This document shows positions 2,941 to 59,452 of a stretch of 64,000 nucleotides of DNA, piece by piece. Location of the stretch: positions 8,176,501-8,240,500 of the forward strand of contig NC_012870.2 in assembly GCF_000003195.3 (NCBI RefSeq), read 5' to 3'. The notes beneath the pieces are model-generated. The model was not told where the DNA came from, searched no databases, and worked only from the letters and a program-made list of their open reading frames with translations. Position numbers and translations under genes: made by a program. Every line of letters begins with the position of its first letter. Position 1 is the stretch's first letter. Source of the stretch: Sorghum bicolor (taxonomy: Eukaryota > Streptophyta > Magnoliopsida > Poales > Poaceae).

Positions 2941-3118
2941 CTTATATGTGATACCTATTGCATGAGTTTGTTTTTTTGTGTAAAAAGTCCTAGCTGAATA
3001 TACTGTTCACTAATTTATTATTAGAGACAAACAATGTTGTTAGATTCGGCAGATAAGCTCAACTCTACAAAGGCACCTCATGTCTTTTGATTTAAAAAAA
3101 TTGAAATTGTTTGACTTA

Positions 3119-3362
3119 GGCCTTGTTTAGTTGGTGAAATGAAAAAATTTACGGCCACTATAGCACTTTCGTTTGTTTGTGGCAAATGTTGTCCAATTAT
3201 AGATTTATTAGGCTCAAAAGATTCATCTCGTGATTTACAGACAAACTGTGTAATTAGTTTTTGTTTTTTACTATATTTAATATTTTATGCATGTGCAATA
3301 AGATTTGATGTGACGAAAAATCTTAATTTTTTTTTGTTTTTTTGGATGAACTAAACAAGGCC
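3119..3362. mobile_element. Tourist-type MITE with TTA duplication, upstream of knotted1
   Basis: The termini GGCCTTGTTTAGTTGG and GAACTAAACAAGGCC are flanked on both sides by TTA (3116-3118 and 3363-3365). The element ends about 405 bp before the knotted1 start codon, so it lies in or just upstream of the promoter. Confidence 0.9.
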
Positions 3363-3769
3363 TTAAAAAATGAGAATTATTTTAGAGTAATGTGACTAGA
3401 AAATAGAAACTCCCTGCAAATCCACCACAAGCCCTTTGATTTGACCTGAAAAAGAAACCCACAAACACCACTCCACACTACTGCACTGTCTCTCTCCAAA
3501 GGCGCATTGGCGTCGCCCAGCCTTTTCCCTACTGTGCCGCGCGCTCTCCCTTCTCTCTAATGATAGCATAGAGAGAGAAGGCATACTTCGAGGCATCCTC
3601 CTCCTCCTTTCCCTCTCCTTCCCCCAAACCCTTTTCCTCTTTCCCTCGCCCCAAGAACTTCATCTCACCTCCAGGCGCCCCCTTTTGCGCTTGCGCAGGA
3701 GCTCGCGGGGACAGTGGGCGGAGAGCTCGATCGCTGCACCACTACTTCACTGGAGATCCGCCCACTCCC

Positions 3770-21871: not shown

Positions 21872-22114
21872 GGCCTTGTTTAGTTCCCAGAAAATTTTGT
21901 AAAATTTTTTAGATTTCCCGTCACATCAAATCTTTAAACGCATGCATGAAGTATTAAATATAGACAAAAATAAAAACTAATTGTACAGTTTAGTCGAAAT
22001 TGACGAGACGAATCTTTTGAGTCTAGTTAGTACATGTTTGAATAATATTTGTTAAATACAAACGAAAGTGGTACTATCCCTATTTTGCAAAAAAAATTGA
22101 AACTAAACAAGGCC
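21872..22114. mobile_element. Tourist-type MITE with TTG duplication
   Basis: Termini GGCCTTGTTTAGTTCCC and AAACTAAACAAGGCC, with TTG on both sides (21869-21871 and 22115-22117). It has the family interior (GTCACATCAAATCTTTAAA, GAGACGAATCTTTTGAG). Confidence 0.9.
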
Positions 22115-32760: not shown

Positions 32761-33109
32761 TAATGACATCCTCTGTTGTAAGTATCAAACCTCTTTTTCT
32801 CTTAACGAAATACTTACACTCAAGCGTATGTTTGAAAAAAAAAGATACTAAATGCCACCACTATTTTCTCTATAAATTTTTGAAAACACGCTTGGTGAAT
32901 ACTGGATCACGTAGTTGGACAATGTAGCTGAGCAAACTGCCATACTCAATATTTTTTACGCTAGCCAGTCAGAGGTCACAGTTTGCGGCACTTCCCTTTC
33001 TATAGTATCCGAAGCAGAGAGTGTGGCCCGTGCTGCGTCGGCGTGAACAATGCGGTCGCCCAGGCAGCTGAGCCAATTTGGCTCTTTCATGGGAGCAAGC
33101 TAAATCATG
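32761..33109. other. Intergenic DNA before the LTR element
   Basis: No gene was seen. The stretch ends at the CTCGT target site (33110-33114) of the retrotransposon. Confidence 0.5.
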
Positions 33110-33114
33110 CTCGT

Positions 33115-33821
33115 TGTTGGGGAAAAGCTGCATCCTTCCCCCTGGTAGCGCCGGAGGTTATCCTTCACCTGAGTAACCTCCGACGCCTGAAACGTCGGAG
33201 GATATCCTTCGACGGGTAATGCTAATGTTGACGACTCGTCTGGTCGTGCAGAGTGTGTGCAGGGACTGAAGCGCCGGCCGAGGTCCACGGGTGAGGAAAA
33301 GGATGGAACCTTCGACCCTCCCGAGTCCGAGGATGGCAGGAGAACGCAGCCAGGCCAAGGAACCTCCGACTGGACCAGACCAAGGAGGAACTCCCGGGGT
33401 GGCCGGGTGAAGCAACCTCCGACCAGCCGGGCTGCGGAACCTCCGACACCAAAGCGTCGGAGGATCCACAACTGGGCGGAGGATCCGAGCCTCCGACCCG
33501 CTGAGGCCCCAGTCAAAAGGATGAACGAAGGGTTTGCGACGTGAAATTACGCGAGTACATTGGGGTCAGTAGACTGCGATGAAAGAATATGCTGGAATAT
33601 TCCCCCACCGTCACGGGGCATTTATGTAAATGTCGTTGGGTCGGTTTCCGGGCCCTATATAAGGGGCGTGATGCCGCCATTAATAAAAAGAAGAGAGCAT
33701 TCACCGCATTCACCTACTGTTGAGCCCACTGTCCGTTATTGCTCAAGCCTCTCACGGCACCGAGTGAGAAGGTTCTCGATCTACTGTATTGCTGGGGTGT
33801 GCGAAGAGCATTTTCCCAACA
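33115..33821 (+). repeat. 5' LTR
   Basis: It is 707 bp, from TGTTGGGG to CCCAACA. U3 contains seven CCTCCGAC/GTCGGAGG words and three short inverted repeats. The TATA box is TATATAA at 33656-33662. A polyadenylation-like AATAAA occurs at 33682-33687. Open frames inside the LTR recur identically in the 3' LTR and are not genes. Confidence 0.97.
33656..33662 (+). promoter_or_regulatory. TATA box of the 5' LTR
   Basis: TATATAA in GGGCCCTATATAAGGGGCG. The start of R is expected near 33690. The same site in the 3' LTR is 46469-46475. Confidence 0.8.
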
Positions 33822-33822
33822 T

Positions 33823-33840
33823 TGGCGCCCACCGTGGGGC
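33823..33840 (+). other. Primer-binding site
   Basis: TGGCGCCCACCGTGGGGC begins one base after the 5' LTR end, where a minus-strand primer-binding site belongs. TGGCGCC is the usual complement of a tRNA 3' end. The donor tRNA is not assigned. Confidence 0.8.
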
Positions 33841-33857
33841 CCGAATTATAACCTGCG

Positions 33858-36800
33858 ATGGCTGGAAAGAGAACAAGCACCACAAGACCTCGGGGAGAGC
33901 CCTCCAGGAGAGGAAGGCCAAGGAGGGCCGTGCGGAGCACGTACGCGACCGTGGAGGGAGAAGGTTCTGAGGGCGAGCAGCCAGAGAACGAGCAGCCGGA
34001 AACACGCCAGGAACCTCCTCCCGCCGCAGACCCGGCGCAGCCCTCGGCCACGCAAGAGCTCCAGCAACTTCAAGCACAATTGCGGAACCTTCAGCAAGAG
34101 CGAGACCGGATCGCTGCTGCCTACGCCGCCAGCCAAGAGGCAGCGGTAGCCGCGACGCAAGCGGCTGAGATCAGGCAGCAGCTTTCACTCCTGCAGGCAG
34201 AAATCCTTAGCATGCAACCTCCAGCTCAGCCGACAATTCAGCCCGCTGTTCTGAACAGCGCCGGCCCAACATTAGACGTGCAACCGACGAACTACGGCGG
34301 CATGTTGCGGGGCACGTTGGACCTTCGTTCCCCTCTGTCCGAAGGATTGCAGACCTCGCCTTGGCCAACAAACTACAAACCAATCACGCTCCCTAAATTC
34401 AGCGGAAAGGCCGATCCGCGCCAATTCCTGATGAGTTTCGAGGCAGCCGTGGCCTCAGCTGGAGGGAACGAGACTGTGATGGCAAAATCCTTCGTGATCG
34501 CAGCCGAGGGAGATGCCTTAGCGTGGTACTCGATGCTCAGACCCGGGTCGATCTATTCATGGGAGAACCTTCGAGACAAGATTTTAGCGAACTTCCAGGG
34601 ATTCGCGGTTGAATCACTAACCTCCACGGACCTGTTCCAGTGTCGCCAGAATCAGGGAGAGGCACTGCGGGAATACTTCCAGAGGTTCGTGCAGACTAAG
34701 GCGAGAGCACCCGGTGTGCCGGAGGAGGTTGCCATCGAAGCGGCCATCAAGGGCCTTCGCATAGGACCCTTCGCGGCTCATTTGGCCAGAGAAAAGCCAG
34801 CATCCATGCACGAGCTGTACCACGAGTTTGAGAAGTATTGCAGGTCAGACAACGACTACCGCAAAAGGTTGGAAGACCAAAACTCTCAGAAGAGGCAGAG
34901 CAATGATAGAAATTCACAGAAGAAGAACCTCAGCCGGGATGAACGCCGGCCACAGCGAGAGGCTGGTGGACAGATGATGAATATCGAGCAACCGAAAAAT
35001 GACAGGCCGGAAAATAACCGTCCACCAGTGGAGGCGCGGAGCTCGGAACGCATACCCAATCAATCCGGAAGAGGGGGTCGAAATGCGGGATGGCGAAAAA
35101 ATCAAAGTCAGCGACCACGGAAACAGTATTGTTTCTTCCATGGAGAAGAGAAGGGTCACTCCACCAGAGATTGCCCAGATGCAAAAGAAACTCAGGAGAG
35201 GATCAAGAGCAGGTCGGCTCCGCAACCTCCGACACCAGTTGCTCAGCCTCGGGAAGTAAACCACACATTCCCTCAAACCTTCTACCATTCATATGTCGGA
35301 GGTTCAAGCCAGCAGCACCCAGCTCCACTTCAACCCAGCGCGCTAGCCTCCGCTTACTATCCCAGCTTCCTACCAGCTTGGCGCCCAGCCCAGCAAACCG
35401 CGGACCACAACCTTCCACCAAACTATGTTCCCCCACGACCTCCACACATCACGTACATCGAAACCCCGCAACCCCACCAGCAGTCACTACCTCCTCCCCC
35501 AAACCAGCTACAGCTACTCCAAGCCCCACCACCAAAGACCGAACCCCACCCTGATAATCAGATCGGCCCTCATACACCCCTGCCCACAATTGGAATGATC
35601 TTACCAATAGCTGGGGGATCCTCAATGGAGTTCCAGACAAAGAAACAGAAGAAGGATCACCTCAGGCTCGTCAACAACGTTGCAGTTCAAGGGCCAGTGA
35701 GATGCACTGATTGGTCCAGAACCCCAATAACCTTCACCGAGGAGGATCTAAGATTGGAAAGCTACCCTCACACAGACGCCTTGGTCATAACAACAAATAT
35801 TGCGGGTTGGGGAGTAAGCAGAATCTTAGTGGATTCTGGGAGTTCCGCAGACATAATATTTGCTGGAACCTTCGACCAAATGAAGCTCAGCAGAAGCCAA
35901 CTCCAACCTTCGGAGTCACCTTTGATCGGGTTCGGAGGAAAGCAGATACATGCTCTGGGAAAGGTCGCCTTGCCCGTATCCTTCGGCACAACAGAGAACG
36001 CAAGAACAGAGTACGTCACCTTCGATGTAGTAGACTTGCACTACCCATATAATGCCATATTCGGGCGAGGATTCTTGAACAAGTTCAATGCGGCCGCTCA
36101 TATGGGATACCTGTGCATGAAAATCCCGGCTCTGCACGGAGTGATAACGGTTCACGGAAGTCAAAAGGAGGCAAGGAACATAGAGAAAGCAATCTACAAG
36201 TCCTTCCGGAACATAAACTCCGTAGACTCTACGCAGCATGAAGCTTCCCAGCCGCCAGACATGCCAAGGGGGAAAACATACCTGGCTGATCAGGAGGAAA
36301 CGAAGTGTATCCCTCTGCAGGAAGCTGTTCCAGATAAGAAGGTCACCATCTCCGCCACCCTTGGTAGAGAGGAGGAACTCGAATTGCTAGACGTATTGCA
36401 AAAGAACCAAGATATTTTTGCTTGGAGTGTCGCTGACCTACAAGGAGTCAGCAGAGACATAATAGAGCATTCGCTGGACATCGATCCAAGAATGAGGCCG
36501 AAGAAGCAGAGACAGAGAAAAATGTCTGAAGAAAGAACCTTAGCCGCGAAGGCAGAGGTACAAAGACTCCTGGACGCAAAGGTCATCAGAGAAGTCGTAT
36601 ACCCGGAATGGTTGGCAAATGTGGTCTTGGTCCCCAAGAAAAATGGCAAAATGAGAATGTGCATAGATTTTACGGATCTCAACAAGGCTTGTGTCAAAGA
36701 CTCCTTCCCCTTGCCAAGGATAGATACCTCTGTGGACAAAGCAGCTGGTTGTCAGAGATTCTCACTGCTGGACTGTTTCTCTGGTTACCACCAAATTTGG

Positions 36801-39506
36801 CTCAAAAAAGAAGACGAAGGAAAGGCAAGCTTCACGACCCCATTCGGCACGTATTGCTACACCAGAATGCCAGAAGGTCTCAAAAACGCCGGAGCAACCT
36901 TCTCCAGAATGATGGGGAAGGTTCTAGGAAGTCAGCTACAGAGAAACATCATAGCCTACGTCGACGATGTTGTCGTCATGAGCAAGCGCAAGGAAGATCA
37001 TATCAAGGACCTGCAGGAAACCTTCGTCAACCTTAGATCTGCCGGGCTGAAACTCAACCCGGAAAAGTGTGTGTTTGGGGTCAGCAAGGGAAAGATGTTG
37101 GGGTATATCATCAGCTCCGAAGGAATTAGAGCTAACCCAGACAAGACAAAAGCAATCATGTCAATGGCAGAACCTTCAAACAAGAAAGAAGTGCAAAGAC
37201 TGACCGGCCGAATAGCAGCCCTCAACAGATTCATATCAAGATCGGCAGAACGAAGCCTCCCATTCTTCAAAGTACTGAGAGGAGAAGGTAAAACAGAATG
37301 GGGTCCGGAGCAATCAGAGGCCTTCAGGCAGCTCAAGAATTACATTGCAACCAACCTAGTGGTGACAGTGCCTGAGCCGGACACCCCACTACTACTGTAT
37401 GTGGCTGCCTCCAATCACGCTGTCAGTGGTGTCCTGGTCCACGAGACAAGCGATAGTAAGGGAACGGTGCAAAGACCCGTCTACTACGTATCTGAAGCTC
37501 TATCAGGAGCAAAGCTGAACTACACGGAGATAGAAAAAATCGCTTACGCGGTCCTGTGTGCATCAAGGAAGCTCAAGCATTACTTCCAAAGCCACGAGAT
37601 TAAAGTGCCCACTTCACAGCCACTGAGTGATATCCTTAGGAACAAAGAGGCTTCCGGACGTATAGGGAAATGGGCGGCCGAACTATCACAGTTTGATATC
37701 ACCTATGTCCCCAGAACCTCCATCAAATCTCAAGCCCTGGCTGACTTCATGGCAGATTGGACACCTTCGAACAAAAACGAGGAGAAGGTAGTCGATCAGC
37801 CGTGGACGCTGTATACAGATGGCGCCTGGGGACAAGCGGGAGCAGGAGCAGCAGCTGTCCTAATCGCACCATCTGGACTCAAACTAAAGTTTGCTATACG
37901 ACTCGAATTCAAAGCAACAAACAACATAGCCGAGTATGAAGGTCTCATCCTCGGACTGAACAAAGCTAAGGCTTCGGGAGCAAAAACCCTACTCATCAAA
38001 ACAGACTCCCAGGTGGTGGCAGGGCAAGTGGAGAAGGAATACCTAACACACAACCCAGAGCTGGCAAGATATCTGGCCGTCGTAAGAGGCCTGGAGAGAA
38101 GGTTCAAGGGATTCACTCTGCAGTACATTCCAAGAGCCGAAAACTACGAGGCAGACGAGCTAGCGAAAGCAGCAGCCAACAACACCCCCTTGCCAGAAGG
38201 AACCTTCCACCAGATTGCTACAACACCCGCAACCGAATCATTGCCAAAAGCCTTTCGCTCAGTCCTGCTGACAGAAAACGAAGATTGGAGGCAGGCAATA
38301 GCTGATTGCCTCAAAGGCGAGACAGCTGTAGATGACGAAGCAACATCCAAGAGAATGGAGGCAAGAGCAAGGAATTACACCTCCATTGACGGAATCCTGT
38401 ACAAGAAAGGCGTAGTCCAACCTTTGCTGAGATGCATATCACAAAGCGAGGGCAGAGAACTCCTACAAGAGATACACTCAGGAATGTGCGGGTCTCACAT
38501 TGGACCCCGCGCGTTGTCTGCTAAAGCACTAAGACAAGGTTTCTACTGGCCAACTCACATTAAAGACGCTGAAGAAATAGTGAGAACATGCAAAGCCTGC
38601 CAAACCTTCTCACCAATTCAGTCAAGACCCTCAGCACTAACTCAGCTCACACCAGCATCATGGCCGTTGCAGAGATGGGGAATGGACCTGGTAGGACCAA
38701 TGCCAACTGCCCAGGGGGGAAACAAATTCGCAGTCGTGGCCATCGAATACTTCACAAGATGGATCGAAGCTAAGCCACTGGCAACCATAACCTCTGAAAC
38801 AATCAGGAAATTTTTCTGGCAGAACATAGTCTGCAGATTCGGAGTCCCACGCTTGCTCACAGTAGACAACGGGAAGCAGTTCGATTCAGACAATTTCAAG
38901 GAATTCTGCCATCACATAGGAACCAAAATTGCTTTCGCATCTGTGTATCACCCAGAGTCAAACGGGGCCGTGGAAAGAGCAAACAGAACAATATTCTCCG
39001 CAATCTCCAAGACCTTACTCAACCTACGCAAGGGGAAATGGGTTGAAGAACTACCAAGAGTTGTATGGTCACATAACACAACAGTTTCAAGAACAACTGG
39101 TTTCACTCCATTCAAGCTCTTGTATGGGGAAGAGGCAATGTTGCCCGAAGAAATCAAACACCAAAGCCTGCGTTCCATGAAACAGCAGTTGGCTGAAGAT
39201 GAAGAGTACTGCAAGGAAACCTTAGAATCAATAAGACTTGAGGCAGTGGAGAATATTACCAGGTATCAACAAGAAACCAAGAATTGGAGAGACCGCAAGG
39301 TAGTACGAAAAGACATACAAAACGGGGACCTGGTGCTCAGGAAAAAAGGAGATCACCCAAACGCTGGTAAATTGCAACCCAAGTGGGAAGGACCTTACAC
39401 AGCAATACAAGCGGGAAGGTCGGGATCCTTCTACCTGAAAGACCTCGAAGGAAGAACCTCCACCCACACGTGGAACGTCGACAACCTACGTAGATTTTAC
39501 ATTTGA
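33858..39506 (+). CDS. Gag-pol polyprotein, Ty3/gypsy Tat type, intact
   Basis: Encodes all retrotransposition enzymes in one 1882-residue frame. Gag lies at about 170-345 ([20 protein letters not shown]). A zinc-knuckle variant at about 425-439 is [15 protein letters not shown], with His in place of the second Cys. The protease has VDSGSSADI with its aspartate near 659. Reverse transcriptase spans about 905-1085 with [19 protein letters not shown] and YVDD near 1034. The first RNase H-like segment is at about 1160-1290. A second, archaeal-type RNase H is at about 1310-1440 ([34 protein letters not shown]). Integrase runs from about 1530 with an HHCC finger (H...H...CKAC) and acidic residues in [15 protein letters not shown] and NGAVERANR. 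There is no stop or frameshift between gag and pol, so both must come from one translation product. The start is the first ATG after the primer-binding site (CGATGGCTGG). Confidence 0.96.
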
Positions 39507-41175
39507 GTGTAAGGATGACCCCTGCAAAATAAGCGGCGGCATCCACATCCCTAAATACGCTTTTTTCTCTTTTTCTCTACTTTTTCGCATTCCAAGGTCT
39601 GCACTCTTTTCCTCACAGGGGTACTCCTACCAGGAGGTGAGGTTTTTAACGAGGCAGAACCTATGTAAAAACCTCTGAAATATAAAGAGGAATCCACCCC
39701 AGAACCAAAGCCCAAAAAGTCGAAAAACAGCCAGCAACGAGGCTGCAGCATTCGACAAAACATCACGTGATTACAAGGACCCTCCGCAGCTTTCATCCAA
39801 AAGCTAAGAAAGCTCGGAACGTCCTCAAAGGTGAAAGAAAACACCAAATCCTTAGCAAAAGACATAGCCAAGAGCCGGGCAGCAAGGTTAACATGGCCAA
39901 AAAGTGAAAAAGTCCTGTCCTTCTCAGGCATCACAACATGGCCGGAAGGAGCAAAACCTTCAAACCTGACAAAGACCTGAGGAGAATCAGGCATCAGGAA
40001 CTATATTATTTTCGCCAAAAGGCAGCGTAGGTTTAACATTCACAAGACATACCTCAACAAAATTCACATAACCTTCACCAAAATAAGGTCGAAGGTATCC
40101 TGCTACTCTAAGCAGACCCCCAACAAACAAACCGTAAAATTCAAACGAAACTACAAAAACCCTCCGTCAGATACAACAAAACCAACTACCACAACAACCA
40201 TCAGTAACCCGACAATAAATTTTAACCTAACGGAGTGCATAAAATAAATGCGTGAAACCCTATAAAACCAGGCTCACCTTACCACCACCCTCAATCAGGA
40301 TCAGCACACAAAGACCCGAGCATCGAGTGCAAACCTAGCAGTCAAAAAGCAAAATCCTAGGCCACCATGGAAGCAGGAGTTAGCCTCACAACACCAACAC
40401 AAGTTTGTATCGCACGAAGCTTCGTAATACTAGAACTACGGCGTTGTGATGAACATCGACCACAAAGTCGTGAACAGCCACAACAGAAACAATGGAAGTC
40501 AGACTCAGAGGTCTCTGAAGGGTGTCGCACGAAGTCTCGTAACATCCCTTCAGAACCTCCGACTTAAACAGCCGAAGGTTCTCCACGACAACACTCCACG
40601 GGAGTCGAGCAAAGGAAAAAAATAGCACAATTCAGCGAAGGATCCTCCGCAACGAAAAAGTCGAAGGTTCTAAGGCCAAGAAGCAGCGATCCTCCGCGAA
40701 ATAGAAAATCAATAACTCCTTCGCAGCTTCAGGCATCAAGAACAAGCAAGCCACAGCAACACAAAGATCCTTAGGATCAACACCACCGTAACGTTGCAAT
40801 ATATAAGTGCTGTAGCGCGAAGGATGTAATAAAAATGAGATCGAAGGTTGTAGCAAACTTAAAAACTTTATTATCAATGAAGAAATCATTACAAAAGTTC
40901 GTTTACAAAAAAATGAATAAAATCATCCTTCGACCCATAAAGAGTCGAAGGTTATGGGTAGCTTGTATAAGTTCAACTTTCAAACACTCCCTCAACTAAA
41001 CAACCGAAGGATCTATGAGTCACGTACAAACTATAGCGCGAAGGCTGTCAAAGTTAAAAGGTGCGAAGGCCATGTGGTAAAAATATCTGATCTTTATTAA
41101 CGGTATACAATGTACATAACACAAGCTTACAACAAAAAATGAAAAACACCCTCCGACCGTAAAACTCCGAAGGTT
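39507..41175 (-). other. Region downstream of pol with antisense coding-like segments
   Basis: There is no sense gene here. On the minus strand two stretches look protein-like. One is 39994-39760 (opening FVRFEGFAPSGHVVMPEKDR after a CTCCTCAG acceptor-like site). The other is about 40800-40640 (GVDPKDLCVAVACLFLMPEA). They share a pattern L-x-L/A-M-x2-x-AK-x-L-x-F-x-F-x2-ED-x3-FL, as if duplicated. The DNA is dense in CCTCCGAC, CGAAGGTT and GATCCTCCGC words. Whether these are 3' exons of the antisense transcript or relics is unknown. Confidence 0.4.
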
Positions 41176-41412
41176 CTAAGACCCTCGCACAATTCTAACA
41201 TACGAATCTGGAAAAAGCCTAAAATCATCACAGTAATCACGTACAAGGAAATCAACTAAGTCATCTATACTACGCGTAGGATACTTGTGGCGCCACCAGT
41301 CAATTAGATAACCCCTCGCATACAAATCTCCACGCTTGAACGTCACCGGGGTAACGTAACTTCCTTCGACAAAGTTCGAAGGAAGATCTTCCAATGGAGA
41401 GGAATTGACAAC
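41176..41412 (-). CDS. Alternative terminal exon B of the antisense gene (possible)
   Basis: After a CGCGCAG acceptor ending at 41413, a phase-0 open exon of 79 codons runs to a stop at 41176. It starts VVNSSPLEDLPSNFVEG and contains VTPVTFKRGDLYARG, WWRHKYPTRSIDDLVDF and YVRIVRGS. It is similar in order and spacing to exon A (41677-41895): xTPxxF, aromatic-rich middle, P...LVD. Either could follow exon 6 in phase 0. A short upstream open segment at about 41594-41470 (LPYPILRIFGERDRVRWV) may be a further exon, but its joins are weak. Confidence 0.45.
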   Translation of the reverse strand, partial: VVNSSPLEDLPSNFVEGSYVTPVTFKRGDLYARGYLIDWWRHKYPTRSIDDLVDFLVRDYCDDFRLFPDSYVRIVRGS

Positions 41413-41676
41413 CTGCGCGCAGAAAATAATAACTTCAAATCCAACAAAAACGAAGGATAAAACTAAAAAGCCAAAGGAAGCCTTCGAACCTCCGGAAAAC
41501 CTTGAAGAAAAGGCTCAGCAACATCCTCAGAAGCCTCCGCCACCCAGCGTACCCTATCTCTCTCACCAAAGATGCGAAGGATAGGATATGGCAACTACAT
41601 AAACACATCAAATCATGTCATAAAAAATATATAACCAAAACCTACGATAAACGAAAAGAAAAACAAAATCATCCAC

Positions 41677-41895
41677 CTAAGCCGGAGGCCATGAACCTCG
41701 GCGCGCAAGCGACTGGATAAATCCAGATCCTTCGCCATCAATATCATATCCAACAAACTCGAACATATCCACCAATCTCATATTAGGGAAGGCAACTTGC
41801 CAATACTCCCACAATTCACCAGAAACATAAATCCCTTTGTAAAAAAACGAAAGAGGAGTAATGAAACGATCCTGCGCAGGTCCTCCGCCAGAAAC
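41677..41895 (-). CDS. Alternative terminal exon A of the antisense gene (possible)
   Basis: The antisense exon 6 sequence CCTCAG is followed by GTGTGAG, which reads either as Val-stop or as a splice donor. If it is used, the next acceptor GATCCTGCGCAG (ending at 41896) opens a phase-0 exon of 73 codons: VSGGGPAQDRFITPLSFFYK, then GELWEYWQVAFPNMRLVDMF, to a stop at 41677. The extended protein would have 1027 residues. The amino-acid composition looks coding, but no transcript evidence is available. Confidence 0.5.
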   Translation of the reverse strand, partial: VSGGGPAQDRFITPLSFFYKGIYVSGELWEYWQVAFPNMRLVDMFEFVGYDIDGEGSGFIQSLARRGSWPPA

Positions 41896-42063
41896 CTGCG
41901 CAGGATCAAAGTGTAAAACAAAGGCTTATCTGAAAACAACTCAATATATTATATTTTCAACAGTCTTTACAAAATAAAACACAACCTCCGGCCTTACTTA
42001 CAAAAAAAGCGTCACACACTTGGACGCAAAAAAGACTAAGAAAAACCTAAAAACTAAAAAGCC

Positions 42064-45000
42064 TCACACCTGAGGCGGAGGAGGAGCAGGAGCCTCGGAC
42101 GTCTCTGAAACCTTGGCACCAGATCCCTCCGGAGCTTTGGCACCAGTATCACGAGCCTCCGCTTCAGGCTGGGTCGGAGGACACACCTCACTCGGGGGAC
42201 GCGAAGGTCCGGCCTTGACAACCTTAGCCTTCTTCTTCGCAATCTCCTACAAAATACCAATCTTAATTAACATTGCAAAGCAGCGAAGCAAAGTACAAAA
42301 AGAAATAACCAAATAATACAAACCTCAGCTCGACGATCCTCCGCCATTTTCTTCGCCTCATCCCGCCCAAACCTAATCCAGAACGAACTGATGAAGTTCC
42401 GGACAGATCTGCGCAGGGAAGGGGTCCCTTCGCCAACGTCCTCCGCCGCGGTAAAATCCTCCTTGGCGACTCCCTCCGCGTGAGAGCAACCTCCGCGGCG
42501 CAAAAGCCTAGCGAAGGAGCTAACCGCGGCCAAAGCCCCAAAATCAACAGCACCTCCGACAAAGTCGGGGAGCATGCGGATATGAGACTTCAGCCACGCG
42601 AGGGCAGCCCCAACATCTCCGCCGGGCGGAGGAGCAGAGGAGCTTCCCCCAAACTTCGCAAGCGAGTCGGCATAGAGCTCGACAATAGCTGCAGCCTCCG
42701 CTTCCGCCTTCCGTATGCGAGTCTGCAGCTCAGCCGCAGACGTCCGCTCAGCGTCAAGCTCTTTGCGAAGGCGTTCAGCAATGTCCTCTGCCTTCTCAGC
42801 TCGCTGCAGGGCTACGTCCCTAACTCTCCCCGCCTCAGCAACACTTGTGCGGAGGACCGCCACCGAAGCTTCGGCATCCTCTTTCTCCTTCCTTAAAGCC
42901 TCCGACCCAGCCTTGTAGTCATCCCTCTCCTTCCTCAGGGAGTCAACCTCCCTCCTGACGGAGGAAAACTCCCTAACCTCCTCCGACAGACGAGCCTTCT
43001 CAGCCTCCAAGGTCTCGTTCTCCTTCTTCAGAACACCAATTGCCTCATCACGGCAGATAACCTCCCGAGAGCAACGCTCCTCTAAGGCGGCAGCCATGTG
43101 ATGACCCTGCGCAAAAATAAATAGTTACAACAAACCTCCGAGTGAAAAACCACGAAGGAAGATACAACAAAGCGCAAACTTACAAGGCTATGGTGCTCAT
43201 ATTGCACGCGAAGGAGCGTGTCAAAGTCCATGCCGCGAAGCTTCTGACGAAAACGATCTGTAAACCAAAAACAATTAAGAAAAACCATCGTAAGAAACAA
43301 AAAAACTTTGGCGGAGGCCAGAACACTAACCTCCGACCAAGGAATGAACCTCGCGCAAGGCATCAGTCCAACCTGTGATCGAAGGTTCAGAAGCACCTGC
43401 ACATAACAAAAACGAACCTTAGAATAAAATGCCAAAAACAAACCAAACCGTTGAAACCAAAAAAGAGGAAACTCACCGGGACCAAGAACATCAGCAGGCG
43501 AAGGCCTGTTGGCCAACGCAGAAGGCGCAGGCTCACGCGGCGGAGGAACGGCAAGCCCCTCCTGCGCGACGCTGGCGCCTTTAGCCATCTCCTCCGCGGT
43601 AGCCAGCCCAGCAAAAACCTCCGCTGAAAGATAAACAAAAAACATGAGAACAAGTCAATCAAAACTTGCATAAAAACAAAATAATCAATAAAAAATCATT
43701 ACCCATGTATAACGAGTTAATACCGTCACCAGCCGGACGAAGGGGAGCCTCCGCCCTCCTGATCCTCCGAACGGAGGCGGACTCAGCTTCATCGCTGGAC
43801 TCCACCTGAACCTCCTTAGGCGGAGACCCTCCGCCAACCGAAGCAACGCGCGGACCCTCAGACTCTGCAGGATTCGCCTCCCGCGCAGGGCTCGCCACAG
43901 GGGCCTCCGCGTCGGAGGACTCCTCCCCAAGCAGAGACGCGAAAGGCGCGCGCACAGAGGAGACCGCACGCGAAGCTTCAGCTTCAGGAGCTCCACCAGC
44001 AGCAGCGGCCTCCGCAGGCGCAGAAGCTACCGAGTTCGACTCGGCACCAGATGAGCGGGCGGAGGAAGACTCCACAGGAGTCTCTAGCACAACCTCCGCC
44101 CTCCGCTTCTTCGCAAGCTGCTTGACTGCGCCACCCCCTCTCCTCTTCTTCGACTCCGCCAAGGCGACAGCCTTCGAGGAGTCCTTCTTCTTCTCCAACC
44201 CAAGCAAAACATCCGGAGGAATAACATAATCCTCATACTCAATCCCCAATTCCTCAAAAACGCGGTTAAACCGAGGCATCGTCCCGAGCGCAGACCTTCG
44301 CTGGAGATACTCCTTCTCCGAGATCTTCCCGACGATCCTCCGCGCAGAAACCTCCACGCGATCAAGGAAGGACTCCTTGGTCTCATCCTCCGGAATACCC
44401 GCGCCGAACCGGGGAAACGGCAACCCCTCCGGAGGACCAAACACAGGAACTTGCACCATCTCAATGGTGAACTCATCGGTCCTGCGGCCAAGTGGCCAGT
44501 AGTCAGCAGCGACCATTTCCTCAACCAAATCCCGGCCTCCGGAGTATCGGCACGCCAACGCGAATGCCTTGTCACAAGCAAGTCGTTCCTCCGACATCTC
44601 CTGCGAAGGATCAACCTTCGAGAAAGGCTTCAGCTCCTTCATCAGCGACGCGTAAGGATAAACTTTATCAACGCTGCCGTCATCCAAAGTCTTCGACGCA
44701 GCGGGGGTCCTCACGTAGAACCAGGCTCTCATCCAATCCTTCTCCCACTTCCCCTTTTGGCAGTAGGAGATCTCGCACCTTGGCCCAGGCATTGTGCGGC
44801 GCGGCATGAACGCGCAGCTTCCGAACTGCGCAATGCACTCGACACCTTCGGCATCCTTCACCTTCTTAGGCTGGCGCTGGAGCTCAAAGTACGAGCAGAA
44901 GGTGTCGATGTGGGGCATGGCTCCGTAGGATTCGCACGCCCATGCGAATTTGCTAAGGGTCAGTATCCCATTGGGGCTGAAATGCTGCAGCTCCACGTTG

Positions 45001-45320
45001 AAGCTCTCCATCACTTCGCGAAGGAAATGATACGGAGGCATCCGAAGTCCGCAGGTGAAGAAGTCCCTGAATACCACCGCATATCCCTCTTCGGGCGCAG
45101 GCACCGTCTGACCAGCAGGAGGAGCCTCCGCACGACCTTCCTTGAAAAATCTAGCCTCAACCATGTCAGCGATATCCTCCGCCCTCACAGTCGACTGCCC
45201 GAATTCAAAAGTAATCGCCGCCATCCCCTCAAACTCCTTCGCACTTATCAGATCACCGACAGAAGCTTCGACGTCAGACAACGTCTCCTCCAGATCTTGA
45301 GCTGCAGCCACCTCAAGCAT
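42064..45320 (-). CDS. Antisense six-exon gene inside the LTR element, Transposase_28-like
   Basis: Function unknown. Exons on the minus strand: 45320-43703, 43623-43477, 43396-43331, 43257-43184, 43106-42324, 42246-42064. The introns are short (74-87 bp), all GT-AG with consensus donors (GTAATG, GTGAGT, GTTAGT, GTAAGT, GTTTGT) and pyrimidine-rich acceptors such as TTTATCTTTCAG. The joined frame has 956 codons. Residues about 70-270 (GYAVVFRDFFTCGLRMPPY, ILTLSKFAWACESYG) resemble the plant 'putative gypsy type transposon' family (Transposase_28). Residues about 388-406 hold two KKRR clusters, a likely bipartite nuclear signal. Ser/Ala/Glu-rich sequence follows. Exon 5 encodes a long heptad-like coiled coil (KKENETLEAEKARLSEEV). 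The open frame extends 5' to 45428, but only through a GTG; the first ATG after the TATA box is 45320. Confidence 0.8.
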
Positions 45321-45554
45321 CCACTCCTCAAACCTCCTCAGCCAACCTCCGGACCTAACGCTAAGAAAATTGCGCAAAGGACCAGAAAAATCTGACCTCG
45401 AAGGACGCGGTGAAGGAAGCTGAGCCACCGTAAAACCTCCGACAACACTTTAGAACTAAACGCACGCGAGCAGCTCAGAGAGAAAGACGTAGCGAAGGAA
45501 GGTGTGCAGGCAATGAGCAGCAGGGGTGAGAGCTCAAAGCTCCCCAGCACCTCC

Positions 45555-45561
45555 TTTTATA
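45555..45561 (-). promoter_or_regulatory. TATA box of the antisense gene
   Basis: On the minus strand the sequence reads CCCTATAAAAGGAGG. It lies about 235 bp before the first antisense ATG (45320-45318). No other ATG occurs between the predicted transcription start (near 45528) and that codon. Confidence 0.7.
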
Positions 45562-45913
45562 GGGGGAGGCCTGCGACCGCGCGGCCGTTGCGATTCCCCG
45601 CGCCCAACGGCTATAAGCGGAGGAATCGGCCAGACCGTTGCGCTTCATCAATGCCAACGGCTAACTCCAACGGCAACAAAATCCTCCGCAATCCTCCGCA
45701 ATCTAACGCGCGTAGGATACTTAGCAGCAATGATCGGAGGATCCCGGCAAAATAAAGAAACAAGAAAAATTACGACTAAGTAAAAGAAACAGTTATCCAA
45801 CATTTGCTAACAAACACATCCTGCGCACCAGGAGGGAAGGCAGCAACCATGCTCGTGACCTCCGCAGCGTAGCATGTTTTTGAGCACATGGACCGCAGGA
45901 GTGCCATTAGCCC

Positions 45914-45927
45914 AAAAAGGGGGGAAC
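45914..45927 (+). other. Polypurine tract
   Basis: AAAAAGGGGGGAAC directly abuts the 3' LTR start (TGTTGGGG at 45928). It is the plus-strand primer site for reverse transcription. Confidence 0.9.
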
Positions 45928-46634
45928 TGTTGGGGAAAAGCTGCATCCTTCCCCCTGGTAGCGCCGGAGGTTATCCTTCACCTGAGTAACCTCCGACGCC
46001 TGAAACGTCGGAGGATATCCTTCGACGGGTAATGCTAATGTTGACGACTCGTCTGGTCGTGCAGAGTGTGTGCAGGGACTGAAGCGCCGGCCGAGGTCCA
46101 CGGGTGAGGAAAAGGATGGAACCTTCGACCCTCCCGAGTCCGAGGATGGCAGGAGAACGCAGCCAGGCCAAGGAACCTCCGACTGGACCAGACCAAGGAG
46201 GAACTCCCGGGGTGGCCGGGTGAAGCAACCTCCGACCAGCCGGGCTGCGGAACCTCCGACACCAAAGCGTCGGAGGATCCACAACTGGGCGGAGGATCCG
46301 AGCCTCCGACCCGCTGAGGCCCCAGTCAAAAGGATGAACGAAGGGTTTGCGACGTGAAATTACGCGAGTACATTGGGGTCAGTAGACTGCGATGAAAGAA
46401 TATGCTGGAATATTCCCCCACCGTCACGGGGCATTTATGTAAATGTCGTTGGGTCGGTTTCCGGGCCCTATATAAGGGGCGTGATGCCGCCATTAATAAA
46501 AAGAAGAGAGCATTCACCGCATTCACCTACTGTTGAGCCCACTGTCCGTTATTGCTCAAGCCTCTCACGGCACCGAGTGAGAAGGTTCTCGATCTACTGT
46601 ATTGCTGGGGTGTGCGAAGAGCATTTTCCCAACA
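45928..46634 (+). repeat. 3' LTR
   Basis: It is 707 bp, and no difference from the 5' LTR was found by eye. It is followed at once by the CTCGT target duplication. Confidence 0.97.
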
Positions 46635-46724
46635 CTCGTGTAGTCACCGAAACGCCTAATTCACAGAAAAATAGACATTACCGCTTGCTATATATCCTCG
46701 CTCGATAAGACGTCACAGTACTAA

Positions 46725-47006
46725 GGCCTTGTTGAGTTCCTCCCGGTGAAAAGTTTTTTTTAAAGTAATATAACACTTTTGTTTGTATTTAGCAATTATT
46801 GTTCGATCGTTCGCAAAAAAAAAAGCAATTAGTGTTCAATCATAGATTAACTATGCTCAAAAGGATTTGTATCGCAAATTATACACAAATTGTACAATTA
46901 GTTATTTATTTTATTTATATTTAATGCTCTATGCATGTATCGTAAGATTTGATGTGACGAATAATTTTGATTTTTTTTTCAGATTTTGGATAAACTAAAC
47001 AAAGCC
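46725..47006. mobile_element. Tourist-type MITE with TAA duplication
   Basis: It starts GGCCTTGTTGAGTTCC and ends TAAACTAAACAAAGCC. TAA flanks it at 46722-46724 and 47007-47009. The interior contains a small partial duplication (GCAATTATTGTTCGATC and GCAATTAGTGTTCAATC), which makes this copy longer than most. Confidence 0.88.
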
Positions 47007-48881: not shown

Positions 48882-51800
48882 ATGGTGAAGATGGAGGAGC
48901 GCACGGGCTCACTCTACGGCCGCCTCAACAGGACCAGCACGCGGGGGTTCCTCGCCTACGTCGCCGCCGGGGCCGCTTGCGCGGCCGTCCTCGCCTGCTT
49001 CGTCCTCTCCGCCGCGGACCCGCCGGCGACTGCGGCGCGCAACGATGTTGCGGCGCGACTCCGCCTGTCCTCGCGCTCACCGCGCGTCTGGCCCGTAAGC
49101 TGTTCGCTCTTTTGCCGCCTCCTGTCTTGCGCGTGCTTCGTGTGCTCGCTCTGCGTCTTCGTGCCTGACGCTGTGCTCACATCGCGGATCGGGATCGTGT
49201 TTTTCTCTCTCTCTCCCAGGACCTCGCGTTCAACTGGCGGGTAGTGGTCGCCACCGTTGTCGGGTTCCTCGGTTCCGCGTTCGGCACCGTCGGCGGCGTC
49301 GGTGGAGGCGGGATCTTCGTGCCCATGCTCAACCTCGTCGTCGGTTTCGACACCAAATCCGCCGCGGCCCTCTCCAAATGTAAGCTACTAGCCTTCTGCC
49401 GATGCATGCATCTGCTGATTTGCTTCCTGACACGCGTGCGTGCTCGCCTGGTTTTGTTCGGTTTGTGCGCAGGCATGATCATGGGGGCCTCGGCGTCGTC
49501 GGTTTGGTACAACCTCCAGGTGTCACACCCGACCAAGGAGGCGCCCGTCATCGACTACAAGCTCGCGCTGCTCTTCCAGCCCATGCTTATGCTCGGCATA
49601 ACCATCGGCGTAGAGCTCAGCGTCATCTTCCCATACTGGCTAATCACTGTCCTCATTATAATCCTCTTCGTAGGTAATCATCGCTTGCCTTTAGCTTGCC
49701 GCTGTAAGCTACTGTTATGTGCGGCCCTGCTTCTTTTATCTGTCCTGTGTACTATGTAGTCGCTGAGATGGAAGCCTGTGCTCGTGTGTCCGCTTCATTT
49801 CAGGCACCTCGTCGAGATCGTTCTACAAGGGGATTCTGATGTGGAGGGAGGAGACCAGGATTCTGGTTGGTTCCTGTCACATTTCAGATGTCTGCTGTTA
49901 AATTACTGTATACTGACATCTTTTGTTTACCCTCTATGTTGAATGATTGTAGATGGAGACACGCGAGCGAGAAGAGCAATCCAAGTCTACCTGCGCTGCA
50001 GGTGATGGTGAGAACTAGTACACAATTGCATGATACTTTGGCATCTTTGTGGATAGCGATTGGCACCAGTTACTTGTACAGTTGTACTTTGAGCTGATAT
50101 TCATATTATGGAGTAACATGTTGTGGTCAAATATGAACTTGTTGCAGTGATAATTGATCCGAGTTATGAGGAGCCCCTCCTGACTCAGCCTCAGCCCAAG
50201 AAGAAGTCTGCATTGGTAAGCTACAACCACTACAAATACCTATCATTTGCATTCGTGGCATCCTAAGCAACTGTGGTTCTTAACGTAATCATGTATTATG
50301 AATGTGCTTTCAGATCCACCTTTGCAACTTTGTCATGATTGGTTGACAGATATTGTTCAGACCCATTCAGTGATTCTTCGTGCCTATATTAACATGGTTA
50401 GGGCCTAGGGTGACGCTGATAGATGCTCTGAACATGCAAGAAAGCAAGAAGAAACAAAAGACAGTGTCACATGTCATCTAATCACTGGATTTTGCTCCCC
50501 TTTTTATTTCAGGAGACTTTCCTGTTCAATTTGAGGTGGAAGAATATCCTTGTTTTAATGTCTGTCTGGTCATCCTTCTTGGTGCTGCAAGTTCTCAAGG
50601 TCTCCCTTCTACGTTGAACTATTTTTTTATAACTCCTATTTAAATACAGTCCATCTGCATAGCAATGATTGATGCCTCTGAAAGATAGACCTCATCATAC
50701 AAGTAGAATCACTTTGGGATCAGTTACCTACATTGACTGTCCAAACCTAAGTTATTCTAGCCCACATGTGCATACAAGACCTTTCAGTGGTCTTTCGATT
50801 CCTTTGTCTTCTTTAGATGGAAATTGTTATTAACTGCAGTAAGTTTTTTATCACTTGCAGAATAATGCGAAATCATGCAGCACTTTCTACTGGGTGGTCA
50901 ACATTCTACAGGTAATGAATTAGCTCAGCTTTGTGCTTCTATTTTGTTTAAACTGACATTATGTCTGCCTGCTAGGCTGTCTTTCCAGTTGTAATATTAA
51001 CCATTTGTTCTGTTGTGTTTGGGCAATCATCTTTTTAAAACGTAAGCCACATTAGGCCTAGATTTTTGGCATATTCATCAGCCACCTTTTGAGCATATCT
51101 CAACTCTCCATTGAGCATTAGCCTTTATTTTGTTGCAAACTGAAAGCTGGGTGTTGATTCTGTTATACGTCACATTAATCAGGCATGAAATCCTTATCAT
51201 TGATACCTTTTAACATTCTGCTAAATTATTTCAGGTTCCAGTTGCGGTGAGTGTATTCTTGTGGGAGGCCATGCAGTTATGTAGGGAGAGTCGTGCACGG
51301 CGTATGAATGGGAACCTGGAATGTGTGTGTGAGGCCTCTATTGAGTGGTCACCAGCACAACTGATCTTCTGTGCCTTCTGTGGCCTTCTCGGTGGGACTG
51401 TTGGTGGCCTTCTTGGATCTGGTGGTGGGTTCATCCTCGGCCCACTTCTTCTCGAGCTTGGGTGCATACCACAGGTATTTAAGTTGCCTTGATTCCATGT
51501 TATTTTTTCATATCTTGCAGTTTATTTTCAAATGCTATCAAGCAGAAATGTATGTTTTCATACGTCTGTCATCTTGATGCTAATGCAGCACACCAAGGAT
51601 TTAGCTAGCCTTTCAATTGGCACAGAAATTTTGGCAGGAGACCCGATTATAATAACAAGGAATACCGTAGAAATGTAGGATAAAGTTGATCCCTATAAGG
51701 TTGTAGTATTACCAATGCATTGTTGCCCAAGGTAACGGCCAGGGCATCGGACAAGCCCATAGTGGAAAGACAAGAATGGGTCTTTCATTTCACATGCATA

Positions 51801-58408: not shown

Positions 58409-58859
58409 AATGTTCACGCTTCATCAGCAGCGCTCGCTTGAGCGCTTTCAATGATCTCACACTTTGATCTCACATGAATGAATCTTCAAAGTGGACAGGA
58501 CCACACGATATAGCTTTGGCCTGCAGTACTGCAATTTCCATGATACATGAAGCCACTATTCACTGCAATTTGCTAACTCCATGATTTTTCAGATGACATT
58601 TTGGGGAAAGGAAACAAATTCATAGTATTATTAGACAGTTTCGAAGGGGAGAACAAGCATTGCAGCGAGCAGCATGGTAATTGTTCCATACTCGCAGTCT
58701 TGGAGATTGGATCCAGCACGATCTCTCATATACGTAGATAATCATGATCTCTGGTTAAGTCCGTGGAGCTGCAAACATCTATGAGTACAATTCAAGCTAG
58801 GCTGCACCAGAGAGCAAATGGTGGAACTATGGTGTCCGAAAAACCCAATGTTCCATGTA
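58409..58859. other. Intergenic DNA, no gene
   Basis: No coding exon, repeat end or RNA gene was recognised. Confidence 0.5.
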
Positions 58860-59102
58860 GGCCTTGTTTAGTTCCAAAAATTTTCGGAAAATGGACACTG
58901 TAGCATTTTCGTTTGTATTTGATAAATATTGTCCAATCATGGACTAACTAGGCTCAAAAGATTCATCTTGTCAATTCCGACCAAACTGTGCAATTAGTTT
59001 TTATTTTCGTCTATATTTAATACTCCATGCATGCGTCTAAATATTCGATGTGACGGGGAATGTGAAAAATTTTGCAAAATTTTCTAGGAAGTAAACAAGG
59101 CC
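58860..59102. mobile_element. Tourist-type MITE
   Basis: It starts GGCCTTGTTTAGTTCC and ends GGAAGTAAACAAGGCC. The duplication is unclear (GTA left, TAA right). The interior is in the inverted orientation (CACTGTAGCATTTTCG first). Confidence 0.88.
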
Positions 59103-59452
59103 TAAACCTCGCAACACATTGGCTTTAAACTTGAAAAGTACACAAAAGTGGACTGCGATGGACATTTCATTCATAGCTGCCTAGTTGGCATTTGATTCCA
59201 GCAGCAAAGCTTCAGAGCTGCAGAATCGCTATATTTCTTTGTGGGTACATGCTTCTTGTTCTTCACTTGACCCAGATCATTATGATGGGCTACTTACTAA
59301 TTAGGCAATACAAAGCAGACACCTATCAAACTTATACAAAAAAATGGTCGCAACAAGATAGCCTGCTTGCATTGCATCTCCAAGTCTAGGAGATAAACCA
59401 AGTCCTACAAACTTACAGGTTACACCAGAAGCTGAGAAGAGAGATCTCCTTA

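Follow-up and report, generated by a model that had tools for sequence, protein, structure and literature searches.

Why would a retrotransposon carry a spliced gene on the strand opposite its own polyprotein? The question is raised by 64,000 nucleotides of the Sorghum bicolor genome (contig NC_012870.2, positions 8,176,501 to 8,240,500 of the forward strand; the window hereafter). In the window, a long terminal repeat (LTR) retrotransposon of 13.5 kb (33115–46634) carries a multi-exon gene on the minus strand, between its plus-strand gag-pol frame and its 3' LTR. This gene belongs to a class that is already known, if unexplained, and is not new in kind, although its model is longer than the one first annotated. 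The new and surprising part of the analysis is an array of the short motif CGRAGG within the element. The reading put forward here, and held tentatively, is that the protein of the antisense gene may bind the CGRAGG sites and thereby regulate, or release from silencing, the element that encodes it, in the manner of the VANC proteins of VANDAL elements, which are DNA transposons.

The initial annotation had described six exons joined through five GT-AG introns into a single frame of 956 codons antisense to gag-pol, and this was reproduced exactly. The six minus-strand exons give 2871 nt, or 956 codons and a stop, from an ATG at 45320 to a stop that ends at 42064. The introns measure 79, 80, 73, 77 and 77 nt. 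As none of these lengths is a multiple of 3, and as in-frame stops lie inside introns 1, 3 and 5, every intron breaks or shifts the frame. The G+C content is 23–39% in the introns and 51–67% in the exons. With a simple model (our own loose GT-AG rules, introns of 65–100 nt), the longest spliced open chain reached 3608 nt on the antisense strand and 755 nt on the opposite strand, against a mean of 455 nt and a maximum of 866 nt in 60 dinucleotide shuffles.

Exon 1 (43703–45320) encodes a Transposase_28 domain at residues 82–148 and basic clusters near residues 391–407. It is followed by exon 2 (43477–43623), exon 3 (43331–43396), exon 4 (43184–43257) and exon 5 (42324–43106), a charged region with a possible coiled coil and an uncertain 3' end. 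A TATA box, TATAAAAG, lies upstream on the minus strand (45554–45561). The segment 45535–45321 is devoid of ATG, so that the ATG at 45320 is the first of the expected transcript, which would run from about 45530 to about 41080. A bacterial-type promoter scan of 45200–45900 returned nothing useful. In the frame above this ATG, 36 codons are open on the minus strand (45321–45428), with a GTG and no ATG; the corresponding region is listed as coding in two relatives, P0001 and P0009.

The gene was compared with five annotated Sorghum bicolor gene models (P0002, P0003, P0005, P0007 and P0031). Identity to the joined protein is 81–96% for P0002, P0003, P0005 and P0007; over part of exon 1 it reaches 99% among P0002, P0003 and P0031. 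The junctions between exons 2 and 3 and between exons 4 and 5 are found in all five models (P0005 having a shortened exon 3), and that between exons 3 and 4 in four. Two of the annotated splice sites fared less well. The donor of intron 1 is placed 21 nt further upstream in four of the five models, which would end exon 1 at 43724; P0007 retains the residues of these 21 nt, with a donor at or adjoining the annotated one and a different acceptor. The annotated donor of intron 5 is used by none of the five: its acceptor recurs in two, paired with different donors, and the remaining three have ended or departed from the frame before that point.

Nor does the gene appear to end at 42064, as had been annotated. 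That stop sits within a likely splice donor, CTCAG|GTGTGA, at which exon 6 would end (42070–42246, instead of 42246–42064 in the six-exon model). P0007, alone among the models, extends into two stretches matching 41591–41481 and 41415–41179. These fit an exon 8 (41490–41594, 78% identity) and a last exon 9 (41176–41412, 87% identity), in phase with exon 6 ended at the donor, and a putative poly(A) signal AATAAA (41093–41098, minus strand) follows 77 nt past the exon 9 stop. From the sequence and this one model, the gene most likely continues 3' of the annotated end into further exons. A candidate exon 7 (41677–41895), used by none of the five models, ends in its own in-frame stop and is a paralogue of exon 9. 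The encoded products align over about 60 residues with a local score of 70, against 24 ± 4.5 for shuffles, none of 1000 shuffles scoring as high. Since the exon 7 stop lies 4 codons from the aligned position of the exon 9 stop, it need not be damage, and exons 7 and 9 are possibly duplicated alternative last exons. Out of nine candidate exons, seven would thus be used if exon 7 is the end and eight if it is skipped, for a predicted product of 1,020–1,068 residues depending on splice choices.

A further antisense frame of 147 codons (39551–39994, minus strand) lies just past pol. An acceptor-like CTCCTCAG is found close to its beginning, and it contains a single CGRAGG site (39781). It has no Pfam match up to an E value of 1 and resembles exon 7 weakly, with a score equalled by 35 of 1000 shuffles; it is perhaps a second antisense gene or an exon.

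The Transposase_28 domain (PF04195) named by the initial annotation was recovered in exon 1 over positions 1–68 of the 69-position profile, with 57.3 bits against a curated cut-off of 26.2. A search with residues 40–400 of exon 1 yielded 36 relatives and an alignment-based search 74; two of the three protein searches scored only candidates sharing most words. Two distant relatives, P0026 (48% identity) and P0029 (42%), are open across 97–98% of the 361-residue stretch. When neutral divergence was simulated with a simple model of our own (substitutions only, uniform mutation), frames remained open in 14 of 100 runs at 90% identity, in 5 of 100 at 80%, and in none of 100 at either 48% or 42%. 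Because distant relatives are open where the simulation left no frame open, the protein has probably been under selection over long times, a comparison to be read knowing that relatives in a protein database are there because their frames are open and are not a random sample of copies. The claim of a complete spliced gene kept functional by the element is supported for the frame, open in relatives of 42–48% identity, and not for the six-exon model, which is most likely incomplete. We are in little doubt that the intron-bearing antisense gene is real.

The product had also been described as nuclear and coiled-coil. Entry into the nucleus is suggested by KKRR-type clusters near residues 391–407, and the possible coiled coil of exon 5 corresponds to a weak, sub-threshold Pfam match. 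The proposed layout comprises the TRP28 domain, the basic clusters, a low-confidence linker, the possible coiled coil and a small C-terminal domain.

The element that carries the gene is a young insertion, as had been annotated. Its 5' LTR (33115–33821, plus strand) and 3' LTR (45928–46634) show no difference across 707 bp, which marks the insertion as recent; it is flanked by the target-site duplication CTCGT (33110–33114 and 46635–46639), and its gag-pol frame is intact (33858–39506, plus strand, 1882 codons). The LTR contains a TATA box, TATATAAG, at 33656. A putative primer-binding site, TGGCGCCCACCGTGGGGC (33823–33840, plus strand), begins 1 base past the 5' LTR, and a putative polypurine tract, AAAAAGGGGGGAAC (45914–45927, plus strand), precedes the 3' LTR; both are assigned from their positions. 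The gag-pol product includes, in order, gag, reverse transcriptase, RNase H, a second RNase H-like domain and integrase, with Pfam matches to RT_RNaseH (1174–1279), RVT_3 (1321–1439) and rve (1603–1699). Two features of Retand elements are present: a further RNase H lying between the first one and integrase (RVT_3 being, in our own reading, the 'aRH' of the literature, PMC6317226), and the antisense TRP28 frame between pol and the 3' LTR. The sizes also agree: the region from pol to the 3' LTR (39507–45927) measures 6,421 bp and the LTR 707 bp, within published Retand ranges of 2,933–6,566 bp and 315–1,194 bp (PMC11963269). On sequence, the element fits the Retand lineage of the Tat clade of Ty3/gypsy. 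No RNA family reached its gathering score within 33000–47000, and scans of viral and genome contigs for related loci gave no confirmed relative, as expected for a plant element.

When hexamers were ranked in the part of the element past pol, the two top ranks went to CGGAGG (68 occurrences) and CGAAGG (40), for which base composition predicts 3.5 and 3.3. The motif CGRAGG was picked from this ranking, and the tests that followed used the sequence from which it had been picked. The window has 164 sites (shuffles give 41.1 ± 7.0), of which 141 are within the 13.5-kb element and 23 across the 50.5 kb outside. Expectations per region were taken as the mean of 200 dinucleotide shuffles. Sites are in excess in the LTR (12 observed, 1.4 expected), in the spacer between pol and the antisense gene (39507–41175; 19 and 1.2), in the introns (6 and 0.14), in the antisense promoter and 5' leader (45321–45927; 9 and 0.84), in the nine antisense exons (60 and 7.3) and in gag-pol (21 and 6.1), whereas the flanks are at shuffle level (15 and 16.9 on the left, 8 and 9.0 on the right). 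The excess in coding parts exceeds that of synonymous-codon shuffles, with 53 sites in exons 1–6 against 19.2 (maximum 32, 500 shuffles) and 21 in gag-pol against 10.2 (maximum 18, 300 shuffles). Chance and codon usage are ruled out as sources of the motif by the introns, the LTR, the spacer and these synonymous shuffles.

The sites are not copies of a longer repeat, since they share almost no information beyond about nine to ten positions, with a context close to KCGRAGGWT. Non-coding parts contain 25 CGGAGG (1.3 expected) and 21 CGAAGG (1.75 expected), while the other one-base variants of CGGAGG occur 0–5 times. Tandem Repeats Finder found only three short arrays of 1.9–2.3 copies within 33000–47000, including a 24-bp unit that contains the motif and is present in 1.9 copies in each LTR. 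All 12 sites of the 5' LTR lie in 33152–33531, upstream of its TATA box, and none is found in the last 290 nt. The density is 28.8 per kb at LTR positions 1–417 and falls to 2.9 per kb at 35761–39506, roughly protease to integrase, a boundary that we chose.

The arrangement of the sites was analyzed with one LTR counted (129 sites). Pairs of the form CCTYCG...CGRAGG starting 18–19 bp apart, a spacing noticed prior to testing, occur 8 times, against 1.0 after jittering of the positions, and none of 5000 jittered sets reached 8 (36 of 5000 did so when any class or spacing was counted). If the strand labels alone were shuffled, the mean was 2.4 pairs at 18–19 bp, and again none of 5000 reached 8 for this class. 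A dimeric DNA-binding protein would be expected to use half-sites of this kind, inverted and at a constant distance.

The proposed explanation is that a Retand/Tat-type element carries, on its other strand, a host-style RNA polymerase II gene with a TATA promoter, exons and a poly(A) signal. The introns of this gene read as CT...AC in the genomic RNA and should not be spliced from it, so that the gene could pass the RNA stage intact; this invisibility to splicing in the sense RNA may be the reason why the gene is antisense. Once transcribed and spliced, it would give a dimeric, sequence-specific DNA-binding factor that enters the nucleus and recognizes (K)CGRAGG(WT) sites across the element, chiefly in the LTR upstream of its TATA box. 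Binding would activate or unsilence the element's own family. If the array is the target of the protein, the function of TRP28 becomes testable with a single purified protein and a single short probe, and retrotransposons too could carry a self-recognition system against silencing. In its strong form, the proposal is that the element possesses its own sequence-specific anti-silencing or trans-activating system, with a dimeric protein whose half-sites have accumulated throughout. Taken as a whole, this strong form is unlikely. If true, it would be an independently evolved Class I counterpart of VANC/VANDAL, and would explain the retention of the TRP28 gene in nearly all surveyed recently active Retand clusters.

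Several observations weigh against the binding of the CGRAGG sites by the antisense product. No DNA-binding domain was found by Pfam in the parts scanned (exons 1, 5 and 7–9, and P0007). Structure prediction, which the initial annotation had suggested, was run on exon 1 and gave a poor AlphaFold model (mean pLDDT 55.5), for which no match among solved or viral folds reached E ≤ 0.001. The spacing signal depends on how it is counted: with all classes and spacings considered, 650 of 5000 strand-label shuffles reach 8 pairs, and if orientation is ignored 138 of 2000 jittered sets equal the peak at 18–19 bp (10 pairs) at one spacing or another. Of 37 pairs of neighbouring sites on the same strand, 27 share the same R, possibly as a result of local duplication. 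The link between protein and motif is their co-occurrence in one element and nothing more, the data at the DNA level come from a single copy, and antisense transcription and splicing are deduced from sequence and annotated models. Finally, the targets of VANC are of the same orientation, often in tandem and mainly non-coding, whereas here the sites are on both strands, have no long repeat context and extend into exons.

Other explanations account for part of these data. The gene may be real and selected, with a protein that serves another nuclear step, such as nuclear entry of the pre-integration complex, integration or RNA export, the CGRAGG sites being left to a host factor or to some other use. 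This is a real possibility, if on balance an unlikely one. The basic clusters of the product would suit it, as would the accessory-protein-like roles put forward in a 2020 review, where GENE23 is reported to be nuclear (PMC7264820), and in Caenorhabditis elegans a nuclear protein of Cer1 is required to export its unspliced RNA (PMC12786077). A host factor, however, accounts poorly for the abundance of sites in introns, spacer and coding exons when the flanks do not rise above shuffle level. It is also conceivable that the antisense transcript itself, rather than a protein, regulates the element through double-stranded RNA, as the same review considers (PMC7264820). We regard this as highly improbable, as a coding explanation is required by the exon-intron structure and by the conserved frame of distant relatives, and the expected transcript stops short of the gag-pol frame. 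That the frame is a chance product or a decaying relic devoid of function is barely credible: the stop at the end of exon 7 could be taken as a sign of decay, but it has its counterpart in exon 9, and the chance test, the open distant relatives and the shared exon junctions all argue for a gene.

The motif array may itself be explained without any bound protein, as the by-product of a decayed tandem repeat or of biased mutation or copying. The 24-bp unit of the LTR and the R shared by same-strand neighbours both point that way. Such an origin is nevertheless quite unlikely, for the positions flanking the motif share almost no information and essentially only R varies within it; moreover, the LTR sites do not extend as far as the TATA box and those of the exons exceed the synonymous-codon shuffles. 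Alternatively, the motif could act in RNA, in the packaging, dimerization or structure of the genomic RNA, since CCTYCG and CGRAGG are complementary and inverted pairs could form hairpins. This is very unlikely. Opposite-strand neighbours share the same R in 28 of 52 cases, which is no more than expected (a fraction of 0.51) and leaves the hairpin reading unsupported; 3 of the eight inverted 18–19 bp pairs are of mixed R and would mispair. In addition, the LTR sites lie upstream of the TATA box, and the RNA would be expected to contain them in its 3' copy alone. Binding of the sites by the antisense protein is the leading, if tentative, reading.

VANC21, one of the anti-silencing proteins of Arabidopsis VANDAL transposons, binds YAGTATTAY, which is present at high density in VANDAL21 elements (PMC5735166). 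In a system of this type, binding of the motif by the encoded protein leads to a loss of DNA methylation. The two cases are alike as systems, an element-encoded protein being accompanied by a dense short motif in its own element; here the motif is concentrated in the element (141 sites) and not in its flanks. The parallel was drawn between systems and not between protein sequences, and it would mean that the antisense gene works like VANC, not that it belongs with it.

Antisense genes of this class have been described, and the initial annotation had correctly stated that Tat-group elements such as Grande carry antisense frames (PMC7264820, PMC11963269). The Retand ORF4 of Silene, rice RIRE2 and GENE23 of maize Grande share with the present gene the antisense orientation and the position between pol and the 3' LTR, and the 2020 review reports for GENE23 a promoter of its own and a product located in the nucleus (PMC7264820). 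The cases of Grande, RIRE2 and Retand are covered in that review, which calls for a search for antisense and spliced transcripts. PF04195 is common to the present gene, to Retand ORF4 and to the antisense TRP28 frames found in 97% of the surveyed recently active Retand clusters; DNA binding is predicted for TRP28, and its function is stated to be unknown (Vicient 2025, PMC11963269). The earlier view that the role of the gene is undescribed is right for the literature examined, whereas the gene class itself was already known. RIRE2 and RetroSor1 have been placed in Retand, where Transposase_28 was reported in 23% of the elements (Neumann 2019, PMC6317226). PF04195 also tops two domain tables of extrachromosomal circular DNA from blackgrass, with 416 and 361 circles (PMC10606437), which agrees with such elements being active in that plant.

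What distinguishes the present gene is its structure. Its nine candidate exons join the TRP28, possible coiled-coil and C-terminal parts, whereas PMC7264820 and PMC11963269, in the parts examined, describe separate open frames and do not contain the word 'intron'. The splice structure would mean that the separate antisense frames of surveys (TRP28 and Smc-like; PMC11963269) may be exons of one gene. Ogre, another Tat-clade LTR retrotransposon of plants, also uses splicing (PMC6317226), but its intron lies in the sense polyprotein region, unlike those of the antisense gene. No spliced antisense TRP28 gene was found in the literature searched, nor any CGRAGG array, although no search named the motif.

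Outside the element, part of a possible TauE/SafE sulfite exporter gene lies downstream of the insertion on the plus strand (49244–49759), with a score of 24.4 bits, below the curated cut-off of 32.6. Two repeat families were also noted, D1 with nine copies (255 nt) and D2 with six (243 nt), for example at 3111–3365, 21872–22114 and 58851–59105. D1 and D2 are related to each other in inverted orientation, and our guess is that they form a family of miniature inverted-repeat transposons.

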